From Larus michahellis (Eukaryota; Chordata; Aves; Charadriiformes; Laridae), in the NCBI RefSeq assembly GCF_964199755.1, contig NC_133917.1, positions 4,221,967 to 4,285,966 of the forward strand: a stretch of 64,000 nt of DNA. The letters run 5' to 3'. Under the pieces are notes generated by a model. It did no database searches, was not told where the DNA came from, and was given only the letters and a program-made list of their open reading frames with translations. The position numbers and the translations under genes are program-made. This document shows, piece by piece, positions 8,085 through 50,500 of this stretch. Each line of letters opens with the position of its first letter. Position 1 is the stretch's first letter.

Positions 8085-9960
8085 GGTTTTTTCCCCAAAA
8101 ATGGCTTTTTTTCCCCCTCTAAAAGGGCTTTTTTCCTGTCTAAAAGGGCACTTTTTCACCTCTAAAAGGGCTCGTTTTCCCTCAAAAAGGGACTTTTTTC
8201 CCCTTAAAAGGTCTTCTTTCCCCCTAAAAGGGCTTTTACTCCCCTCTCAAAGGGCTGTTTTTTCCCCCTAAAAGGGCTTTTTTCCATCTTAAAGGGCCTT
8301 TTTTTCCCTCTAAAAGGGCTGGGTTTCCCTCTGTAAAGGGCTTTTTTCCCTCAAAATGAGCCTTTTTTCCCCTCTAAAAGGATTGTTTTCCCTCTAACGG
8401 GGCTGATTTTCCCTCTAAAAGGTCACTTTTCTCCCTAAAAGGGCTTTTCCCCCACTTTAAAAGATCAATTTTTCCCCCTAAAAGGGCCTTTTTTCCCTCT
8501 AAAAGGGCTTGTCTCACTCTAAAAGGGCTTTTTCCCCCCTTTTAAAAGGTCCATTTTCACCCCTTAAAGGGACGATTTTCCCCCTAAAGGGGCTTTTTTT
8601 TCTGTCAAAAGGGCTCTTTTTCACCTCGAAAAGAGCTGTTTTCCCTCTAAAAGGGTGTCTTTTCCCCCTAAAGGTCTTTTTTCCCCCCTAAAAGGGCTTT
8701 TATGCCCCTCTAAAAGGTCTTCCCCCCCCACCCCAAAAGGGCTTTCTCCTCTAAAAGGGCTTTTCCTCCCTCCAAAAGGGCTGTTTTTCCCTATGAAAGG
8801 TCTTTTTTCTCTCTAAAAGGGCTTTTTCCCCACCTCTAAAACAGCTTTTTCCCCTCCAAAAAGGCTGGTTTCCCTCTAAAAGGGCTTTTTCCCCTCTAAA
8901 AGGGATGTTTTTCCCTCTAAAAGGTCTTTTTTCCCCCTAAAAGGGCCTTTTTTTTCCCCTCTAAACCATCTTTTTCCCTTCTAGAAGGGCTTTTTCCCTC
9001 TAAAAGGGCTTTTTTTTCCCCTCTAAAATGGCTTTTTCCCCTCCAAAATGTCTCTTTTCCCTCCGAAAGGGCTTTTTCCCCTCCAAAAAGGGCTGGTTTT
9101 CCCCTAAAAAGGGCCTCTTCTCCCCCCACTAAAACGGATTTTCCCCCTCCAAAAGGGCAGTTTTCCCTCCAAAAGGGCAGTTTTCCCTCTAAAAGGGTTT
9201 TTTCCCCCTGCCTAAAATGCCTTTTTCCCCTCCAAAACGGCTTTTCCCCCTCCAAGAGGGCCTTTTCCCCTCTAAAAGGTCTGGTTTTCCCTCGAAAAGG
9301 TCTTTTTTTTTTTCCCCTCAAAGGGCCTTTTTTCCTCCTTCCAGACGGTCTTTTTCCCCTCTAAAGGGCCTTTTTTCCCCTCTAAAAGGGCTGTTCTTCC
9401 CCTAAAAGCCCCTTTTTTTCCCATCTGAAATGCCCTTTTCCCCTCCAAAAGGGATTTTCCCCTCGGAAACGTCTCTTTTCCCTCTAAAAGGACTTTCCCC
9501 CCCCCTCTAAAATGGCTTTTTCCCCTCCGAGAGGGCTGGTTTTCCCTCCAAAAGGGCTGGTTTTCCCTCTAAAAGGGCTCTTTTTCCCTCTAAAAGGTCT
9601 TTTTTCCCCCTCTAAAGCGGCTTTTCCCCCTCTAAACCGGCTTTTTCCCCTCCAAAAGGGCTGGTTTTCCCTCTAAAGGGTCTTATTTTTCCCCTAAAAG
9701 GGCCTTTTTTCCCCCTCTAAACCGGCTTTTTCCCTCCAAAAGGGCTGGTTTTCCCACTAAACCATCTTTTTTTTTCCCCTAAAAGGCCCTTTTCCCCCCT
9801 CTAAAGCAGCTTTTTCCCCTCCAAAAAGACTGTTTTCCCCCCAAAAGGGCCTCTTCTCTCCCTCTAAACCAGCTTTTTCCCCTCCAAAACGCCCTTTCCC
9901 CCTCCAAAAGGGCCTTTTCCCCTCCGAAATGTCTCTTTTCCCTCAAAAAAGGCTTTATTC
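8085..9960. repeat. 21-bp array, TCTAAAAGGGCTTTTTYCCC, about 85 copies
   Basis: Nearly 1.9 kb of head-to-tail 20-23-bp units with alternating T/C-rich and A/G-rich halves. Each unit (CTTTTT...AAAAGGG) has imperfect dyad symmetry. The array is long, homogeneous and ends cleanly at both sides. Confidence 0.92.
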
Positions 9961-10694
9961 CCCCTTTCCCTTCCTCCTCCTTTCCCTCTCCCACCCTTCC
10001 CAGTGCTCCCACCGCAGCCGGAACTGGGAATAAACCCCCCCGGCTCCGGCAAAGCCTCCGCGAGGAGTTGGGCGGGGGGGGGGGGGAATGGGAAAAAAAA
10101 GAGCTGTTTTTTTATTGGGGAAAACAAAAAATGACATTTTTATTGTCTCTTGTATTGCGCTATTTTCTTCTTCTTTTTTTTTTTTATTTTTTATTACCCA
10201 CTTCCAGCTTTATTCGCGCCGGTAACAGAAGGGAAATTATTTTTCCAAGAGGGTTTTTATTTTATTTTTTTATTTTGATTTTATCCCCCCCCCTCCCCCC
10301 CCCCCGCCCTCCTTTTTCATACCCACATTTTCCTTTTTAAACTCTTTGGAAAATCCTGCGGAGCAGCTGGGACGCAGGAGAAGGGGAAGGGGGGGGGGGG
10401 CGAGGGGGGGGAGCGAGCAATAAAACCTAAAAGGAACCGATAAAGATTAATTATCTAATTAAGAGAGACATAAAATATAGAGAGGAAGAAAAAAGCCTCT
10501 TGCCAAAATTTTTTTTTTTTTTGGGGGGGGGCGGGATTTGCAGCCGCGGGGGGGTGGGGAAGGGCTGGGGCGGGGGGGGGTGGGATCTAAACACCCCCCC
10601 CACCCCGTTTTGCCTTTTTCTGCCCCAAAATAGGGGTGGGGAGCGGGGGGGGGGGGGTGGTCCCGGGGTCCCCATGGTGCCAAAGCTGCCGAAT
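9961..10694. promoter_or_regulatory. unique AT-rich block, candidate non-coding element
   Basis: Unique sequence including GAATAAACCCCCCCG, a T-rich stretch (10,120-10,270) with ATGACATTTTTATTGTCTC, and AAAGATTAATTATCTAATTAAGAGAGACATAAAATATAG near 10,443-10,482. The last stretch has several TAAT/ATTA cores. It stands out from the flanking arrays; regulatory function is inferred from composition only. Confidence 0.25.
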
Positions 10695-13430
10695 CCTCAG
10701 CCCTGCGCATCCCAGTCCCAGAATATCCCAGTCCCGCACATCCCATTCCCACACATCCCATTCCCACAGCATCCCAGTCCCGCAGCATCCCAGTCCCAAA
10801 ACATCCCAGTTCCACAGCATCCCATTCCCATGCATCCCAGTCCCAGAACATCCTAGTCCCGCACATCCCGTTCCCACAGCATCCCAGTTCCACAACATCC
10901 CAGTCCCGCATATCCCAGTTCCACAGTATCCCAGTCTCACAGCATCCCATTCCCACACATCCCAGTCCCGCACATCCCAGTCCTGCAACATTCCAGTCCC
11001 GCAGCATCCCAGTCCAGTAGCATCCCAATTCCACACCATCCCAGTCCCGCACATCCCAGTCCCACGCATCCCAGTCCTACACATCCCAGTCCCAGAACAT
11101 CCCAGTCCCACACATCCCATTCCCACAGCGTTACAGTTCCACAGCATCCCAGCCCCAAAACATCCCGGTCCAGCAGCATCCCACTCCCACGCATCCCAGT
11201 CCCAGAACATCCTAGTCCTGCATATCCCATTCCCACAGCATCCCAATTCCACACCATCCCAGTCCCGCACATCCCGGTCCCCCAGCATCCCATTCCTACA
11301 GCAACCCAATTCCACAGCATCCCAGTCCCACAGCATCCCGATTCCAGGGTATCCCAGTCCCACACATCCCACTCCCGCAGCATCCCAACCCTGTCCATCC
11401 CATTCCCACAGCATCCCATTCCCACAGCATCCCATTCCTACAGCATCCCAGTCCAGCAGCATCCGAGTCCTGCAACATCCCTATCTGGCAGCATCCCGAT
11501 TCCACAGCATCCCAGTTCCAGAGTATCCCAGTCCAACACCATCCCAGTCCTGCAGCATCTCAACCCCACAGCATCCCAGTTCCACAGCATCCCAGTCCGG
11601 CAGCATCCCAGTTACACAGCATCCCAGTCCGGCAGCATCCCAGCCCTGAAGTGTCCCAGTCCAACACCATCCCAGTCCGGCAGCATCGCAATTCCAGAGC
11701 ATCCCAGTCCAGCACATCCTCAACCTCACACATCCCATTCCCACAGCATCCCAGTCCAACACCATCCCAGTCCCACAGTATCCCATTCCCACAGCATCCC
11801 ATTCCTACAGTATCCCAGTCTGGCAGCATCCCCGTCCCACAGCATCCCAGTCCGGCAGCATCCCAGTTACACAGCATCCCAGTTCCAGAGTATCCCAGTC
11901 TAACACCATCCCAGTCCCGCAGCATCCCATTCCCACAGCATCCCAATTCCAGGGTATCCCGGTCCCGCACATCCCACTCCCACAGCATCCCAACCCTGTC
12001 CATTCCATTCCCACAGCATCCCGGTTCCACAACATCCCAGTCTGGCAGCATCCCAATTCCACAGCATCCCAGTTCCACAGTATCCCAGTCTCACAGCATC
12101 CCATTCCCACGCATCCCAGCCCCGCACATCCCAGTCCCAGAACATCCCAGTCCTGCAGCATCCCTATCCCACAGCATCCCAATTCCACACCATCCCAGTC
12201 TGGCAGCATCCGAATTCAACAGCATCCAAGTACCATGGCATCCCATTCCCACACATCCCATTCCCACACATCCCATTCCCACACATCCCAGTCCCGCACG
12301 TCCCAGTCCTGCAGCATCTTGATCCCGTACATCCCAACCCCACACGGTCCCATCCCAACCCCATTCATCCCAGTCCTGCCCATCCCTGTCCCAGAACATC
12401 CCAGTCCTGGCCATCCCAGTCCCAGAACATCCCAGTCCTGCAGCATCCCTATCCCACAGCATCCCAATTCCACACCATTCCAGTCCAGCAGCATCCTAAT
12501 TCAACAGCATCCAAGTCCCATGGCATCCCATTCCCACACGTCCCGGTCCTGCACATCCCAAACCTGCAGCATCTTGATCCCGTACATCCCAACCCCACAC
12601 GGTCCCATCCCAACCCCATTCATCCCAGTCCCGCACATCCCAGTCCTGCCCATCCCAGTCCCGCACATCCCAGTCCCAGAACATCCCAGTCCTGCAGCAT
12701 CCGTATCCCACAGCATCTCAATTCCACACCATCCCAGTCCAGCAGCATCCGAATTCAACAGCATCCAAGTCCCACGGCATCCCGTTCCCACACATCCCAT
12801 TCCCACACATCCCAGCCCTGGCCATCCCAGTCCTGCACATCCCAGTCCTGCAGCATCCCTATCCCACAGCATCCCAATTCCACACCATCCCAGTCCGGCA
12901 GCATCCTAATTCAACAGCATCCAAGTCCCACGGCATCCCGTTCCCACACATCCCATTCCCACACATCCCATTCCCACACATCCCAGTCCTGCAGCATCTT
13001 GATCCCGTACATCCCAACCCCACACGGTCCCATCCCAACCCCATTCATCCCAGTCCCGCACATCCCATTCCCACACATCCCAGCCCTGGCCATCCCAGTC
13101 CTGCAACATCCCAGTCCTGCAGCATCCCAGTCCTGCAGCATCCCAGTCCCAGAACATCCCAGTCCTGCAACATCCCAGTCCCAGAACATCCCAGTCCTGC
13201 AGCATCCCTATCCCACAGCATCCCAATTCCACACCATCCCAGTCCGGCAGCGTCCTAATTCAACAGCATCCAAGTCCCATGGCATCCCGTTCCCACACAT
13301 CCCATTCCCACACATCCCAGCCCTGGCCATCCCAGTCCCACAGCATCCCGATTCCAGCGTATCCCAGTCCCGCACAGCCCAGTCCTGTAGCATCCCAAGC
13401 CTGTCCATCCCAGTTCCGCACATCCCAGTC
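10695..13430. repeat. 2.7-kb array of 10-12-bp CATCCCAGTCC units with higher-order blocks
   Basis: Roughly 240 tandem copies of CATCCCAGTCCY. Superimposed is a longer block: a segment starting CAGCATCTTGATCCCGTACA recurs near 12,310, 12,570 and 12,990, showing later segmental duplication inside the array. All long frames here (Trp-Asp-Gly or Pro-Ser-Ile-Pro peptides) are artefacts. Confidence 0.93.
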
Positions 13431-41328: not shown

Positions 41329-41528
41329 NNNNNNNNNNNNNNNNNNNNNNNNNNNNNNNNNNNNNNNNNNNNNNNNNNNNNNNNNNNNNNNNNNNNNNNN
41401 NNNNNNNNNNNNNNNNNNNNNNNNNNNNNNNNNNNNNNNNNNNNNNNNNNNNNNNNNNNNNNNNNNNNNNNNNNNNNNNNNNNNNNNNNNNNNNNNNNNN
41501 NNNNNNNNNNNNNNNNNNNNNNNNNNNN
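41329..41528. other. assembly gap, 200 N
   Basis: Exactly 200 N, a conventional placeholder length. The left edge is inside NFE2 and the right edge in an ITGA5 intron, so the real missing sequence must be far longer than 200 bp if the join is correct. Confidence 0.98.
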
Positions 41529-41591: not shown

Positions 41592-44500
41592 CGTTGTAGC
41601 CGTCCAGGTCCAGGTCTCCCAGGGGGGCGATGGCGCTGCCGAAGCGCCCAAACTCCTGGGGCCCGGTGAGGGCCATGGCGGGGGCGGGTGCCATGGCGGG
41701 GGGGGGGTCGGGCAGGTTCCCCCCCCCCCCGCCGCTGCTGCAGGTACAGGTACACCCTGCCCACCTCCTGCACCCGCCCCCCCCCGCTCCGCGCCATGAA
41801 GAGGGGGGCCCCCACCAGCAGGTCGGCCAGTCTGCGGGCAACGGCCGTCAGAGCCCCCCCGCGACCCACCACCACGACCCCCCCCCCAACACACACACCC
41901 CAGGGGTGGGATGGGGGGGGGGGGCACCCATGGGTGCCCAGAGAGCAGGCATGGGGCCGGGGGGGGCACTCACCCATCATTGTTCACGTCGGTGGCTGCC
42001 ACGGCGTAGCCGAAATAGGCTGCCATCTGATGGGGGGGTCATGGGGGGGTCATGGGGGGGGTCATGGGGGGGGGCCCCCACCCCCCCCCCCCCGCTCAAC
42101 CTGCGTGGGTGCCCCCCACCCCCTGTGGATGCTCCCAATGTGTAGGGGTGCCCCCCCCACCCCCCCTGCTTGGGCACCCCCCCGCCATGCCCAGGTGCCC
42201 CCCCCCCATACATGGGTGCCCCCCGCCATGCCCAGGTGCCCCCCCCCCGAGAAGTGCCCCCCCCCCATCCATGGGTGCCCCCCGCCCAATATATGGGTGC
42301 CCCCACTCTGAGAAGTGTCCCCCCCATACATGGGTGCCCCCCACCATGCCCAGGTGCCCCCCCCCCATACACGGGTGGCCCCCCCCTCCCCCCCAATATA
42401 ACGGGTGCTCCCACCCCCACACATGGTGCCCCCCCCATACATGGGTGCCCCCCACCCTCTGCGGGACGCCCCCCCCCCCCCCCTCCATTGCACCCAGGAC
42501 ACACTGGGGACACCCAGAACCCCAGGTGGGCCCCCCCAACCCTGGCCTGGGACCCCCCCCCCGCCCCCCACCCCAACCTCCACGCCCCCCCCCGCCCCCG
42601 ACCCCCCCCAGGGCCCCCCCCCGGCCCCACCTGCTCCCCCGAGAAGTTGTACAGGGACTTCATGTTGGTGCCATTGAGGATGGTGACCTGGGGACACGGG
42701 GGACAAGGGAGGGGGGGGGACACTGCGGCAGCGGTCAGGGAACCCAGACAGCCAGGCCCCCCCCTCTCCCACCCCCCGCTGCCCCCCCCGACCCCCCCCC
42801 CGGTGTCCCCCCCGTGTCCCCGCAGCCTTACGTAGCCGTAGGTGAGGTTGCCCTTGGGGACACCAGCCACGAAGTCTGCAAGGGACAAAGTGACCCCGTC
42901 AGGGGGTTGCCTGTGACACCCCCCCACCCCCCCCCGCCACGTCACCCTGGTGGCACCCACCTTGCGTCGTGTCCCCGCTGAACTCGCCGACCGCCACCGA
43001 GTAGCCTGGGAGGGGGCAGCGGTGTCACCCGCCTTGTCACCCCGGGCCACTGATGCCACCCCGACTCCCGCCTCCCCAGTGCCATCCTGCCCCCCCCGTG
43101 TCACTGTGCCCCCCCGGCCCTGTCCCCATGTCCCTCCTCCGTGCCCTCCTGCCCCCGTGTCCCTGTCCCCGATGTCCGTGTCTCTCTGTACCCTGTGCCC
43201 CTTTCCCATGTCCCTGTGTCCCCGTGTCCCTGTGTCCCCGTGTCCCCATCACCTCTGTCCCTGTCTCCCTTGTCCCCGTGCCCCCATGCCCCTTGTGTGC
43301 CCCTGTCCCCCCATGTCCCCCGTGCCCCATGTCCCCTGCCCCTCTCCCCGTCCTCCCATGTCCCCATGCCCCATGTCCCCATGCCCCTGTCTCCTGTGTC
43401 CTCATGTCCCCCATGCCCCTGTCCCCCCTTGTCCCCATATCCCCATGCCCTGTCCCCCCATGCCCCTGTCCCCCCTTGTCCCCATATCCCCATGCCCTGT
43501 CCCCCCATGCCCCCATTTCCATCTTCCCTGTGTCCCTGTCCTCCCACGTCCCCGTCCCCAATGTCCTCCATGTCCCCATGCCCGTGTCATCCATGCCCCA
43601 TGTCCCCCTGTCCTGCGTCCCCAGGCAGACCCGTGTAGCTGTCCCTATGTGTCCCCATGCCCGTGTCCCCCCTGTCCCCCTGTCCCCCATCCCCATGCAG
43701 ACCCATGTAGCTGTCCCCAAGTGTCCCCATGTCCCCTGTCCCCCTGTCCCCCGGCAGACCCCTGTAACTGTCCCCACGTGTCCCCATGCCCCGTCCCCCC
43801 TGTCCCCCGTCCCCATGCAGCCCCATGTCCCCTGTCCCCAGGCAGATCCATGTAGCTGTCCCCAAGTGTCCCCATGCCCATGTCCCCCGTCCCCATGCAG
43901 ACCCATGTCCCCCTGTCCCGTGTCCCCAGGCAGACCCATGTAGCTGTCCCCACTTGTCCCCACGTCCACTGTCCCCCCGTCCCCCGTTCCCATGCAGCCC
44001 CATGTAGCTGTCCCCACTTGTCCCCATGTCCCCCTGTCCCCATGCAGCTCCATGTAGCTGTCCCCATGTGTCCCCATGTCCCTTGTCCCCCTGTCCCCAT
44101 GCAGCCGTCCCCATGTGTCCCCTGTCCCCTGTCCCCAGGCAGACCCATGTAGCTGTCCCCACGTGTCCCCATGTCCTCTGTCCCCTGTCTCCATGCAGCC
44201 CCATATAGCTGTCCCCACGTGTCCCCATGTCCCCTGTCTCCATGCAGACCCATGTAGCTGTCCCCATGTGTCCCCATGTCCCCTGTGCCCCTGTCCCCCC
44301 TGTCCCCTGGCAGCCCCATGTCCCCTGTCCCCAGGCAGACCCGTGTAGCTGTCCCCACGTGTCCCCATGTCCTCTGTCCCCTGTCTCCATGCAGCCCCAT
44401 ATAGCTGTCCCCACGTGTCCCCATGTCCCCTGTCCCCATGCAGCCCCATGTAGCTGTCCCCACGTGTCCCCATGTCCCCTGTCTCCATGCAGACCCATGT

Positions 44501-47500
44501 AGCTGTCCCCAAGTGTCCCCTGTCCCCCATCCCCATGCAGACCCATGTAGTGTCCCCATGTGTCCCCATGTCCCCTGTGCCCCTGTCCCCCCTGTCCCCT
44601 GGCAGCCCCATGTCCCCTGTCCCCTGTCCCCAGGCAGACCCATGTTGCTGTCCCCACGTGTCCCCATGTCCCCTGTCCCCCGTCCCCATGCAGCCCCATG
44701 TAGCTGTCCCCACGTGTCCCCATGTCCCCTGTCCCCATGCAGACCCATGTAGCTGTCCCCAAGTGTCCCCTGTCCCCCGTCCCCCATCCCCAAGCAGACC
44801 CATGTAGCTGTCCCCACGTGTCCCCACGTGTCCCCACGTGTCCCCCGTCCCCAGGCAGACCCATGTAGCTGTCGTCGTGGGTGGGGGCCGCCTGGCGCGT
44901 CTGGAGCTGCCCGGCCACCTCCTGGATGAAGTACTCGGGGTAGCTGGAGGCCGCGATCTGCTCCTGCGTCGCCGACATCACCTGCCCTGGGGGCGCGGGT
45001 GGCCCCTCAGCACCCAGGGGTGCTGCCCGCCGCGCCGGCGGGGGGACGGGGGGGGCGAGGGAGGGGGGGACGGGGGCGGGCGGGGGGGTTCAGGGACAAT
45101 CGGGGGAGTTCGGGGACAATGGGGGCAGGTGGGGGTGTCTAGGGACAGGCAGGGGAGTTTGGGGACAAGGAGGGGAGTTTGGGGACAATTGGGGCGGGTG
45201 GGGGTGTCTAGGCAGGGGGGTTTAGGGACAATCAGAGGAGTTTAGGGACAGGCAGCGGAGTTTGGGGACAATCAGGGGAGTTTGGGGACAATCAGGGACG
45301 GGCAGGGACGGGCAGGGGAGTTTGGGGACAATGAGGGGAGTTTGGGGACAATCAGGGACGGGCAGGGACGGGCAGGGGAGTTTGGGGACAATGAGTGGAG
45401 TTTGGGGACAATTGGGGCGGGTGGGGGTGTCTCGGCAGGGGGGTTTAGGGACAATCAGAGGAGTTTAGGGACAATCGGGGCAGGTGGGGGTGTCTAGGGA
45501 CAGGCAGGGGAGTTTGGGGACAATCAGGGGAGTTTGGGGACAATCAGGGACAGGCAGTGGGGTTTAGGGACAATCAGGGCAGGTGGGGGTGTCCGGGGAC
45601 AGACAGGGGAGTTTGGGGACAATCAGGGGATTTTTGGGGACAATCAGGGACAGGCAGGGACGGGCAGGGGAGTTTGGGGACAATGAGGGGAGTTTGGGGA
45701 CAATTGGGGTGGGTGGGGGTGTCTCAGCAGGGGGGTTTAGGGACAATCAGAGGAGTTTAGGGACAATCGGGGCAGGTGGGGGTGTCTAGGGACAGGCAGG
45801 GGAGTTTGGGGACAATGAGGGGAGTTTAGGGACAACCAGGGACAGGCAGCGGCAGGCAGGGGAGTTTGGGGACAATCAGGGGAGTCTGGGGACAATCAGG
45901 GACAGGCAGTGGGTAGGGACAATCGGGGCAGGTGGGGGTGTCCGGGGACAGACAGGGGAGTTTGGGGACAATCAGGGGATTTTGGGGACAATCAGGGACA
46001 GGCAGGGACGGGCAGGGGAGTTTGGGGACAATCAGGGGAGTTTGGGGACAATTGGGGCGGGTGGGGGTGTCTAGGCAGGGGGGTTTAGGGACAATCAGAG
46101 GCGTTTAGGGACAATGAGGGGAGTTTGGGGACAATGAGGGACGGGCAGGGGCTGGGGTCTCACCTTGCCAGAAGTAGCTGCCGGGCCCCCCAGCAGCACC
46201 CGTCCCGTCTGCGGAGAGACCGGGGGGGGGCCCCCCCTCAGCCTGGGGCACCCGCCAGGGCCCCCCGCCCCCACCCCCTATTGCCCCCAGACCCCATTAT
46301 ACCCCCCTACCCCCACATACCGCCCCCCCCCCCCAAACAGTGACCCCCAATATACCCCCCACCACCACCACCCCATTACCCCCCTGGACCCCTGCCCCTC
46401 CACGCCCTCACCCCCCCATCCCCACGGTACCCCCCCATGTCCCCTTATATCCCCCGTGCCCCCCATGCCCCCTGTGCCCCCCCCGTGCCCCCCCGTGCCC
46501 CCACCTGGGTGAACTCGGCGCTGAAGCCCCCCTGGCAGTAGCCCTGCCCGGCCGCGGAGTTCAGGTCTGTGGGGAGAAAGGGGGGGGGGCTGTTGGGGGG
46601 GCTGGGGGGGCCTGGGGTCCCATGGGGGCTGGCTGGGGGGCCAGGGGGGGGTCACCTGCTGGGGCTGCCCAGGGTCCCATGGGTGCTGGCTGGGGGGCTA
46701 TGGGGGGGTCAGGGGTCCCATGGGGGCTGGCTGGGGGGCCATGGGGGGGTCAGCCCCCAGGGTGCCAGGCTGGGGGGTCAGGTGTCCCATGGGGGCTGGC
46801 TGGGGGGCCATGGGGGGGTCACCAGCTGGGGGTGCCTGGCGTCCCATGGGTGCTGGCTGGGGCGCTATGGGGGATCAGGGATCCCATGGGTGCTGCCTGG
46901 GGGGCTATGGGGGGGGTCAGGGGTCCCAGTGTGTCCAGGCAGTGTCCGGGGGGGGGGTCACCCTGGGGTGCTGGGCATGGGGGGGGGGGCGGTGATGCCC
47001 AGGGGCGCCAGGCAGGGGCTTATGGGGGTGCTGGGCCGGGGGCGGGGGGGTATCCAGTGGTGCCACCCGTGGGTGCCGGGCGGGGGGTGCCCAGAGGCTG
47101 CCTGTGGGTCTGGGGGGGGGGGGGGGGGGCGTGGGGGGGGGGTGTCACACCTGAGCGGCACGGCGCGTATTCACGAACTTGGAGAAGTTGCCGATGGAGA
47201 GGAAGCAGGTGCCCACCGGCTCCCGGCCCCCCCCCTCCTCCTTGGGGGGGCTCCAGCTGTACAGCGGGGCGCAGCCTGGGGCGGGGGGGGGGGGGAGGAG
47301 GGGGGGGGCGGGGGGGACACACATGATGACGACGAGATACATGGGGTGGGGGGGGGCACGGGGGAGGTGGGGGGGGTCCACACACAGACCGACCCTCCTG
47401 CTCCCTCCGTGCTCCCCGCTCACCCTCCCCAGTGACCCCCGCCTGCCCCATGAGCAGCCCCCCCCCCCCGTGCCCCCCCCTGTGCCCCCCCTGCCCCGTA

Positions 47501-50500
47501 CCAGGATGGAGGCGTTGTGTGCCCGCACGGTGGCCCCGAACCACTGCAGGGACTTGAACTCGACGGGGTCGGGGGTCTCCGTGTTGTTGCCCCCGAAGTC
47601 GTGGGTGCGGGTCCCTGGGGGGGGGGGCGGGGAAAGCAGGGGTCAGGCCGGCACCCGCTGCCGCAGCACCCATGGGACCCCCCACCCCCCCCCAGCACCC
47701 ACCGCTCCCCCCAGGTTTATCATTAACCAGGCGGTGCCAAGGCCACGGGGGAGGGGGGACACATGGCCATGGGGGACGATGACGTGGGGCTGGGGGGGCT
47801 GCTGGAGGGGTCCGTAGGGGGGGGCCTGGCCCCGGCCATGCTCATCCCTGTCCCGTCCCCACCCATGTCCTCGGCCCTGTCCCCCACCCTTGTCCCCACC
47901 GTGTCCCCATCCTCGTTCCCCACCCGCATCTCTGTCCCCATGCCCGGGGTGGGGGGGGCACATCCCCACCCATGTCCCCGTCCCCCACCCGTGTCCTCGC
48001 TCTGTCCCCACACCCGGGGGGTCCTGTCCCCACTCCTGTCCTCATCCTTGTCCCCCACCCTGTCCCCATGCCCGGGAGGACCGTCCCCACCCTCATCCCC
48101 CACCCGTGTCCCCCACCCTGTCCCCATGCTCAGGGGGGTCCTGTCCCCACTCGTGTCCCCATCCTTGTCCCCCACCCGTGTCCCCCACCCTGTCCCCATG
48201 CTCAGGGGGTCCTGTCCCCACTCGTGTCCCCATCCTTGTCCCCCACCCTGTCCCCATGCCCAGGAGGACTGTCCCCACCTCTATCCTCATCCTGTGTCCC
48301 CCACCCTGTCCCCATGCTCAGGGGGGTCCTGTCCCCACTTGTGTCCCCATCCTTGTCCCCCACCCTGTCCCCATGCCCAGGGGGGGTCCTGACCCCACTT
48401 GTGTCCCCATCCTTGTCCCCTACCTGTGTCCCCCATCCTGTCCCCATGCACAGGGGGGGTCCTGTCCCCACTCGTGTCCCCATCCTTGTCCCCTGCCTGT
48501 GTCCCCCACCCTGTCCCCATGCTCAGGGGGTCCTGTCCCCACTCGTGTCCCCATCCTTGTCCCCCACCCTGTCCCCATGCTCAGGGGGTCCTGTCCCCAC
48601 TCGTGTCCCCATCCTTGTCCCCCACCCTGTCCCCATGCCCAGGAGGACTGTCCCCACCTCTGTCCCCGTCCTCATCCTGTGTCCCCCACCCTGTCCCCAT
48701 GCTCAGGGGGTCCTGTCCCCACTCGTGTCTCCATCCTTGTCCCCTACCTGTGTCCCCCACCCTGTCCCCATGCTCAGGGGCGTACTGTCCCCACTCATGT
48801 CCCCATTCTTGTCCCCCACCCTGTCCCCATGCTCAGGGGGTCCTGTCCCCACTCATGTCCCCATCCTTTCCCCCACCCGTGTCCCCCACCCTGTTCCCAT
48901 GCCCAGGAGGACTGTCCCCACCTGTGTCCCCATCCTTGTCCCCCACCCTGTCCCCATGCCCAGGAGGACTGTCCCCACCTCTGTCCCCATCCTCATCCTG
49001 TGTCCCCCACCCTGTCCCCATGCTCAGGGGGTCCTGACCCCACTTGTGTCCCCATCCTTGTCCCCTACCTGTGTCCCCTATCCTGTCCCCATGCACAGGG
49101 GGGGTCCTGTCCCCACTCGTGTCCCCATCCTTGTCCCCCACCCTGTCCCCATGCTCAGGGGGGTCCTGTCCCCACTTGTGTCCCCATCCTTTCCCCCACC
49201 CGTGTCCCCCACCCTGTTCCCGTGCCCGGGAGGACTGTCCCCACCTGTGTCCCCATCCTTGTCCCCCATCCTTGTCCCCCACCCTGTCCCCATGCTCAGG
49301 GGGGTCCTGTCCCCACTTGTGTCCCCATCCTTTCCCCCACCCGTGTCCCCCACCCTGTTCCCGTGCCCGGGAGGACTGTCCCCACCTGTGTCCCCATCCT
49401 TGTCCCCCACCCGTGTCCCCCACCCTGTCCCCATGCTCGGGGGGGGTCCTGTCCCCACCCGTGTCCCCATCCCCTTACCGATGTGGTCGAAGTCGATGGG
49501 GGTGCATTCGTCACCGGGGGGCCAGGGGCAGTGGTAGACGGCCCCTCCCTGGGTGACATTGGGCTGGCTCGTGTTGGCCTTGGGGGCACCCACCAGGATG
49601 CTGACGCTGTTGGAGGGGGGGGGGGGGGGTGAGTGGGATGCTCGGTGGGGGGACAGGACTGTCCCCATGGGGACACAGTGGCCGTCACCCCCGGGGCACC
49701 CCAGGATGGGGGGGACGCAGGAGCCCTGGAGTGGGGGTGTCCTGGGGCAGCGGGGGACAGGAGGGAAACCTCTGTGGCCCCCCCGCGTGTATGTGTGTCC
49801 CCCCCAACTCAGGCCATGGGGCCGGGCCTGGGTGACCCCTTCCGGCTCCGTGGGGGAGAGGAAGCGCCGAAACCACCCACGGCCGTGGGGTGGTGGTGGG
49901 GCACCCACCATGGGAGCGGGGGGGGAAGGTTGGGGACACCCAGTGGCTCCCAGGACCACCCTATGGGTGCCCCCGGCCCCTCTGCGCCCCCCATCCCCCG
50001 GGGTCCCGGGGGGGGGGACGGGACCCTGGGGTGCAGGTCACGCGTGGGGGTCGGGGGGGGTCGGGGGGGGTAGGGCCGTGCCCGGACGCCTGAGACACCC
50101 CCCCCCGACCCCCCCCCTCCGCCCCCCGGGGGCAGCTCCCGGCTCCGGTTACAGGAAACGCTCCGGCCGGGGGCTACGGGGCCCCGGGACCACCGGCGGG
50201 GGCCGGAGCGGGGCGAGGGGGGAGCCGGGGCTCAAACCCCCCCCCGGTGCCCTCAGCCCCGCCGGAGCCCCCCGGGGCCGGAGTGTTGCCGGTTCCCGTT
50301 ACTTCAACCCGGTTCCCGGGACCGCCCCGTCCCCGCTTCCCGGTTTCTGCCCCGTTCCCGGTTCCCGTTACTCCGTCCCGCTTCCCGTTTCCCATTCCCG
50401 GTCCCGTTTCCCGTCGGTTCCCTTTCCCCATTCCCGATGCCCCGGTCCCGTTACCCCACCCCGCCCCCGGTTCCCGGTCCCCGTTCCCGGTCCTCGTTCC

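Follow-up and report, generated by a model that had tools for sequence, protein, structure and literature searches.

Sequence stuttering on avian dot chromosomes includes exon stuttering, in which a lateral part of an exon is copied, together with its splice donor or acceptor, through the adjacent intron (Hron et al. 2026, PMC12954441). According to the main text of that report, the chicken genome holds 236 such introns in 115 genes, 190 on dot chromosomes; the copied exon parts measure 20-187 bp, occur in 1-44 copies and span 112-23,555 bp. Raw nanopore reads confirmed the structure in chicken PHF8, and the potential for alternatively spliced transcripts from copied donors is raised there. 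The stated criterion is repetition itself, and the screen required an exon hit of at least 20 nt with a bit score of at least 42.1. A literature search for the term exon stuttering returned this paper as its sole match. The subject of the present analysis is an array in intron 7 of ITGA5, the gene for integrin alpha-5, in Larus michahellis. It lies in a window of 64,000 nucleotides (positions 4,221,967-4,285,966 of the 7.03-Mb contig NC_133917.1, assembly GCF_964199755.1; genome total 1.405 Gb), and all positions below are those of the window. The array is concluded to be a real, exon-derived case of exon stuttering that falls below the threshold of the published screen. Two further systems offer comparison. 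Minisatellites can originate when strands slip and mispair at short repeats that are not contiguous, and in human IFI6 (6-16), as Turri and colleagues are said to have reported in 1995, the units of a minisatellite act as splice donors; the unit there is reportedly about 12 bp long with a strong donor consensus.

On the minus strand, ITGA5 exon 7 ends in GACGACAGCTACATGG and is followed from 44,860 by the intron start GTCTGC. An initial annotation of this stretch had placed the exon end and donor at 44,861/44,860, and this is borne out. The exon matches human alpha-5, and its reading frame is continuous into exon 8. Downstream of the real junction, within 1.23 kb and on the same strand, are 20 copies of the core GACAGCTACATGG/GTCTGC (here and below, a slash marks the exon-intron junction). 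Eighteen are full copies with 0-2 mismatches and two are partial, with 4 and 5 mismatches. They are spaced 33-97 bp apart (median 56, mean 61.5); the array had first been described as 19 units of about 65 bp, of which the tandem arrangement stands and the number and length are replaced by these counts. The dinucleotide at positions +1/+2 is GT in 13 of the 20 copies, GG in five, AG in one and AT in one, in keeping with the earlier estimate of about twelve copies with GT and the remainder mostly GG.

The core is confined to this locus. At up to 4 mismatches, a search of the whole window gave 20 minus-strand matches including the real one, all at this junction or in this intron, and no match on the plus strand. 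Genome-wide, in a search that passes over simple repeats and words of very high frequency, the exact 19-mer was found eight times, all at the array with one being the real junction, and zero times when read backwards. The words AGCTAC and GTCTGC each occur 14 times in intron 7, all before its final 619 nt, and neither occurs in any of the 10 further ITGA5 introns examined. Near copies (up to 3 mismatches, within 2.5 kb) numbered 18 for the exon 7 donor versus 0 for each of 11 other ITGA5 donors. For HNRNPA1, a plus-strand gene of the window, every GT near seven exon ends was tried (exon ends matching structures, with the first exon and the last ones left out), and no copy with up to 3 mismatches was found, apart from a single 3-mismatch match to one GT presumed not to be the donor. 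Over the two genes, one donor in 19 is copied. None of 11 ITGA5 acceptors had copies of its exon side; for one of them the intron side was matched twice, each time with 3 mismatches.

These features resemble exon stuttering as described in the main text of PMC12954441: imperfect tandem copies of a coding exon border with its splice site are found only in the adjacent intron, and their number and span lie inside the reported ranges. The setting is likewise a GC-rich gene with repeat-filled introns and mostly repeat-free exons, Tandem Repeats Finder (TRF) covering 93% of intron 7 and 4% of exon sequence. The copies cross the junction, comprising 13 exon nt and at least 6 donor nt, and in two copies the exact match runs 14 nt into the intron. 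Unlike the reported cases, with exon parts of 20-187 nt, the exon part in ITGA5 is only 13 nt long. With the published search settings applied to ITGA5 (the gene's plus strand), the best exon 7 hit was 13 nt long and scored 26.3 bits, below both limits and below the best score against shuffled ITGA5 introns (34.2 bits). When 20 nt of flanking intron were added to the query, the same copies reached 58.0 bits. Since the 13-nt exon part is under the threshold, the published screen would miss the ITGA5 array; ITGA5 is without mention in the main text of that paper and may stand in its gene list (Fig. S5).

The left edge of the copies bears on how the array began. To the left of GACAGC, none of the 18 full copies matches the exon; TGGG stands there in 17 and TAGG in one. 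Because this left junction is shared by all 18, the simplest reading is a single founding event from which every full copy derives. The exon (CGACGACA) and the GGGGACA repeat of introns 7 and 2 share the word GACA. GGGGACA occurs 102 times in intron 7, 93 times in intron 2 and 0-2 times in each of the other nine ITGA5 introns; ACATGGGG has 27 occurrences in intron 7. The intronic GGGGACA-type repeat may have mispaired with the exon end through GACA, by slippage or template switching, to yield a founder duplication that took in the 13-nt end of exon 7 along with the donor and the first part of the intron. Such a founder at a short shared word would be like minisatellite birth by slipped-strand mispairing, although in ITGA5 a single junction suggests it. 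The founder unit would then have grown to about 20 copies by duplication of blocks holding one or several units, with gene conversion, slippage or unequal exchange as probable routes. Stretches of 91, 74, 61 and 52 bp recur exactly within the array at offsets of 196-292 bp. No gradient of mismatches with distance from the exon was detectable among the 18 copies (Spearman 0.20, P 0.42), which fits continuing turnover. The proposal that the unit arose by amplification of an exon-intron boundary is upheld by the 27 nt identical over the junction in two copies.

Donor strength was scored with a donor weight matrix and by U1 pairing energy. By both measures the real exon 7 donor is the lowest of 12 ITGA5 donors (matrix 0.36 versus 3.98-10.69; U1 pairing -4.0 versus -4.3 to -10.8 kcal/mol), and the weakness initially attributed to it is thereby confirmed. 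Ten of the 13 GT copies carry a 9-mer identical to the real donor and score equally, and three that differ at position -3 score slightly above it (0.95-1.98); two copies have a U1 energy of -5.1. Fourteen sites in the spacers (11 CAC/GTGGGG, two CAA/GTGGGG and one GAC/GTGGGG) score 3.3-5.4, above both the real donor and the copies, with U1 energies of -4.3/-4.4 near the real donor's. Since these sites outscore the copies, the strongest competitors by the matrix are not exon-derived. A GT at 43,252, outside the array, scores 6.16. Intron 2 (47615-49478) also contains a GGGGACA-type array, in which 42 GT sites score at least 6 and nine score at least as high as the intron's own donor; near copies of its exon's donor were not found there. 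The higher-scoring spacer sites and the donor-like sites of intron 2, where exon-derived copies are absent, speak against the special role as decoys that the initial annotation had given to the copies. The other role suggested there for the array, in U1 capture or intron definition, is hypothetical.

An enrichment of donor motifs in the arrays of the surrounding 264 kb was also considered and rejected, such motifs being no commoner than in reversed sequence. Sites scoring at least 6 with at least three near copies made up 37/472 and 81/520 on the two strands versus 118/661 and 293/808 in reversed sequence, and at a score of at least 8 the corresponding figures were 15/132 and 12/125 versus 41/172 and 126/271. 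The intron 7 copies score below 6 and so stand outside these counts.

Among the 18 full copies, 15 substitutions were counted in the 19-nt core, eight of them at +1/+2 and none at +3 to +6, contrary to the notion of a maintained ladder of donors. This concentration has a P of 5e-5 if the changes are independent and, counted by kinds of change, is 2 of 7 (P 0.16). Since duplicated blocks share GT changes, selection against decoys is not claimed, and GT loss as a sign of it was dropped. Unit lengths (49, 55, 56, 61 bp and others) are not multiples of three and rotate through the frames, so that a GDSYMG frame is not sustained, and the suggested extension of the exon by multiples of a GDSYMG-coding unit was rejected. 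In a frame test started from exon 7, upstream of which there is a frame break, five of the 13 GT copies keep the frame, with extensions of 318, 366, 1101, 1158 and 1230 nt, and eight shift it and lead to a stop in exons 8-11; because frames are broken in other ITGA5 exons, array lengths modulo three are uncertain and unit lengths could be wrong by one or two bases. From 44,860 to 43,655 the array strand has zero TAA, TAG or TGA and is open in three frames because of its repeat words.

A resemblance of the GGGGACA repeats to the exon end by composition, with no common origin, is barely credible. GACA and ATGGGG do belong to the background repeat, yet AGCTAC and GTCTGC have the restricted distribution described above, two copies are identical to the real junction over 27 nt, the exon 7 donor differs sharply in near copies from each of the 11 others, and no array remote from ITGA5 yielded the exact 19-mer. 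Alternatively, the array might have been made or inflated in assembly by repeat reads that were collapsed or wrongly joined, and the 200-N gap at 41,329-41,528 and frame breaks in three exon stretches lend this some colour. It is nevertheless very unlikely, in that the copies differ from each other and sit in varied spacers and that nanopore reads confirmed such a structure in chicken PHF8 (PMC12954441), neither point being a test of this assembly.

The array could also be a functional bank of donors, in which the copies help or vary the weak real donor as U1 landing sites, G-run enhancers or alternative exon 7 ends, and repeat number tunes splicing. G-runs and donor copies would then recruit U1 and offset the weak donor, array length would set, from one individual to another, how much normal and extended mRNA is made, and the five in-frame copies would add 106-410 residues to alpha-5. 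The weakness of the real donor, the stop-free array strand and the 186 GGG runs of intron 7 (10.0 per 100 nt, the densest of 11 introns) are all consistent with this, as is the IFI6 precedent of minisatellite units said to serve as donors. Both genes have a minisatellite adjoining an exon with donor-like sequence in its units, but downstream units are reportedly used as donors in IFI6, whereas in ITGA5 such use is hypothetical. Further, GT is not preferentially kept, most GT copies merely equal the real donor and the three that exceed it are themselves surpassed by the spacer sites, eight of the 13 GT copies would put translation out of frame and end it at a stop, and stronger donor-like repeats exist in other introns without exon copies. 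The donor bank, like copy-number tuning of ITGA5, is accordingly considered unlikely, and a role of the array in splicing is unsupported. That exon stuttering with exon parts below 20 nt is common and has been overlooked by the published screen is held to be likelier than such tuning.

The preferred reading, to which we assign a probability of about 85%, is that the array represents exon stuttering, with a microhomology-mediated founder at GACA, block amplification and, as we infer, no function. In exon definition, a donor is paired with an acceptor across the exon. The spliceosome would most likely use the real donor, since its partner, the acceptor of exon 7, lies 126 nt upstream, and the copies would give at most low-level aberrant transcripts. 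Several points weigh against this interpretation. The array is known from one assembly, one individual and the intron of one species; the eight of 15 substitutions at +1/+2 are not independent events (2 of 7, P 0.16, by kinds of change); stuttering has been described on dot chromosomes, of which NC_133917.1 may or may not be one; and an exon part of 13 nt is below every case in the range given in PMC12954441 (20-187 nt) and under the hit threshold used there.

Table 1. Positions of the intron 7 array, its copies and the flanking ITGA5 exons in the window.
Feature	Position	Strand	Basis or remark
ITGA5 exon 7, 126 nt	44861..44986	-	phmmer to human integrin alpha-5, E 4.7e-11; boundaries, frame; donor codon of paralogous exon
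13-nt exon 7 end taken up in the repeat	44861-44873	-	
Real splice donor TGG/GTCTGC, intron start 44860	44855..44863	-	matrix score, U1 pairing energy
Exon-derived array, 20 core copies with GGGGACA-type spacers	43625..44860	-	TRF period 49, 18.3 copies over 43906-44835
Spacer sites CAC/GTGGGG, GT at 44837, 44827 and 44817; score 4.36 each	44812..44840	-	above real donor
First downstream copy, exact 19/19, GT at 44799	44794..44812	-	
Copy with 27-nt exact match over junction (13 exon + 14 intron nt)	44131..44157	-	
Copy with GT lost (AG instead)	44044..44062	-	
Second copy with 27-nt exact match over junction	43922-43948	-	
Last recognisable copy, 18/19, GT at 43630	43625..43643	-	
Intron remainder: minisatellite, 20 GGGGACA, without AGCTAC or GTCTGC	43006..43624	-	
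ITGA5 exon 8, begins GYSVAVGEF at 43,005	42961..43005	-	protein match, boundaries

The donor of a paralogous, ITGAV-like exon of this genome (TTGG/GTGCGT) falls at the same codon as that of exon 7, and no second copy of the paralog's junction was found at up to 4 mismatches in 3,093 bases (one junction of one paralog). The residue before the ITGA5 junction (44860-44875) is Met (DSYM), versus Leu in human alpha-5 and in the local alpha-V-like paralog. The background repeat includes the word ACATGGG. Gene conversion from the array into the end of exon 7, giving the Met residue, is conceivable.

The 5′ part of ITGA5 is on the minus strand, with further exon matches around exon 7. GC content is 64-75% across 42-52 kb of the window, and tandem repeats make up about 44% of the 64 kb (TRF, 367 arrays) and 63% of the ITGA5 introns overall (0-93% in single introns). 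Long tandem arrays are also found outside ITGA5, for example at 8087-9963 and 10707-13397. The frame of ITGA5 is broken at the exon 3-4 join, within exon 4 and in the exon 12-13 stretch (47151-47614; 41592-41831); these breaks may be genuine or may stem from assembly indels within G/C runs. The 200-N gap interrupts the gene after the exon 12-13 stretch, and a bZIP-coding gene, NFE2-like by eye, follows on the same strand immediately past it, so that the 3′ half of ITGA5 lies outside the window; a single C-terminal peptide query for the missing part gave only three weak matches elsewhere. On the far side, beyond ITGA5, two of the six frames were scanned and a CHHC zinc finger of U11-48K type, as in GTSF1, was seen.

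The ITGA5 array offers an easily read example of how exon stuttering could begin, with one left junction and a four-base word shared between coding sequence and an intronic repeat. The published screen misses such short exon parts, and a query made of the exon with 20 nt of flanking sequence recovers the ITGA5 case. As the array is tied to an unusually weak donor, effects on splicing would be testable by RNA in animals that differ in array length.

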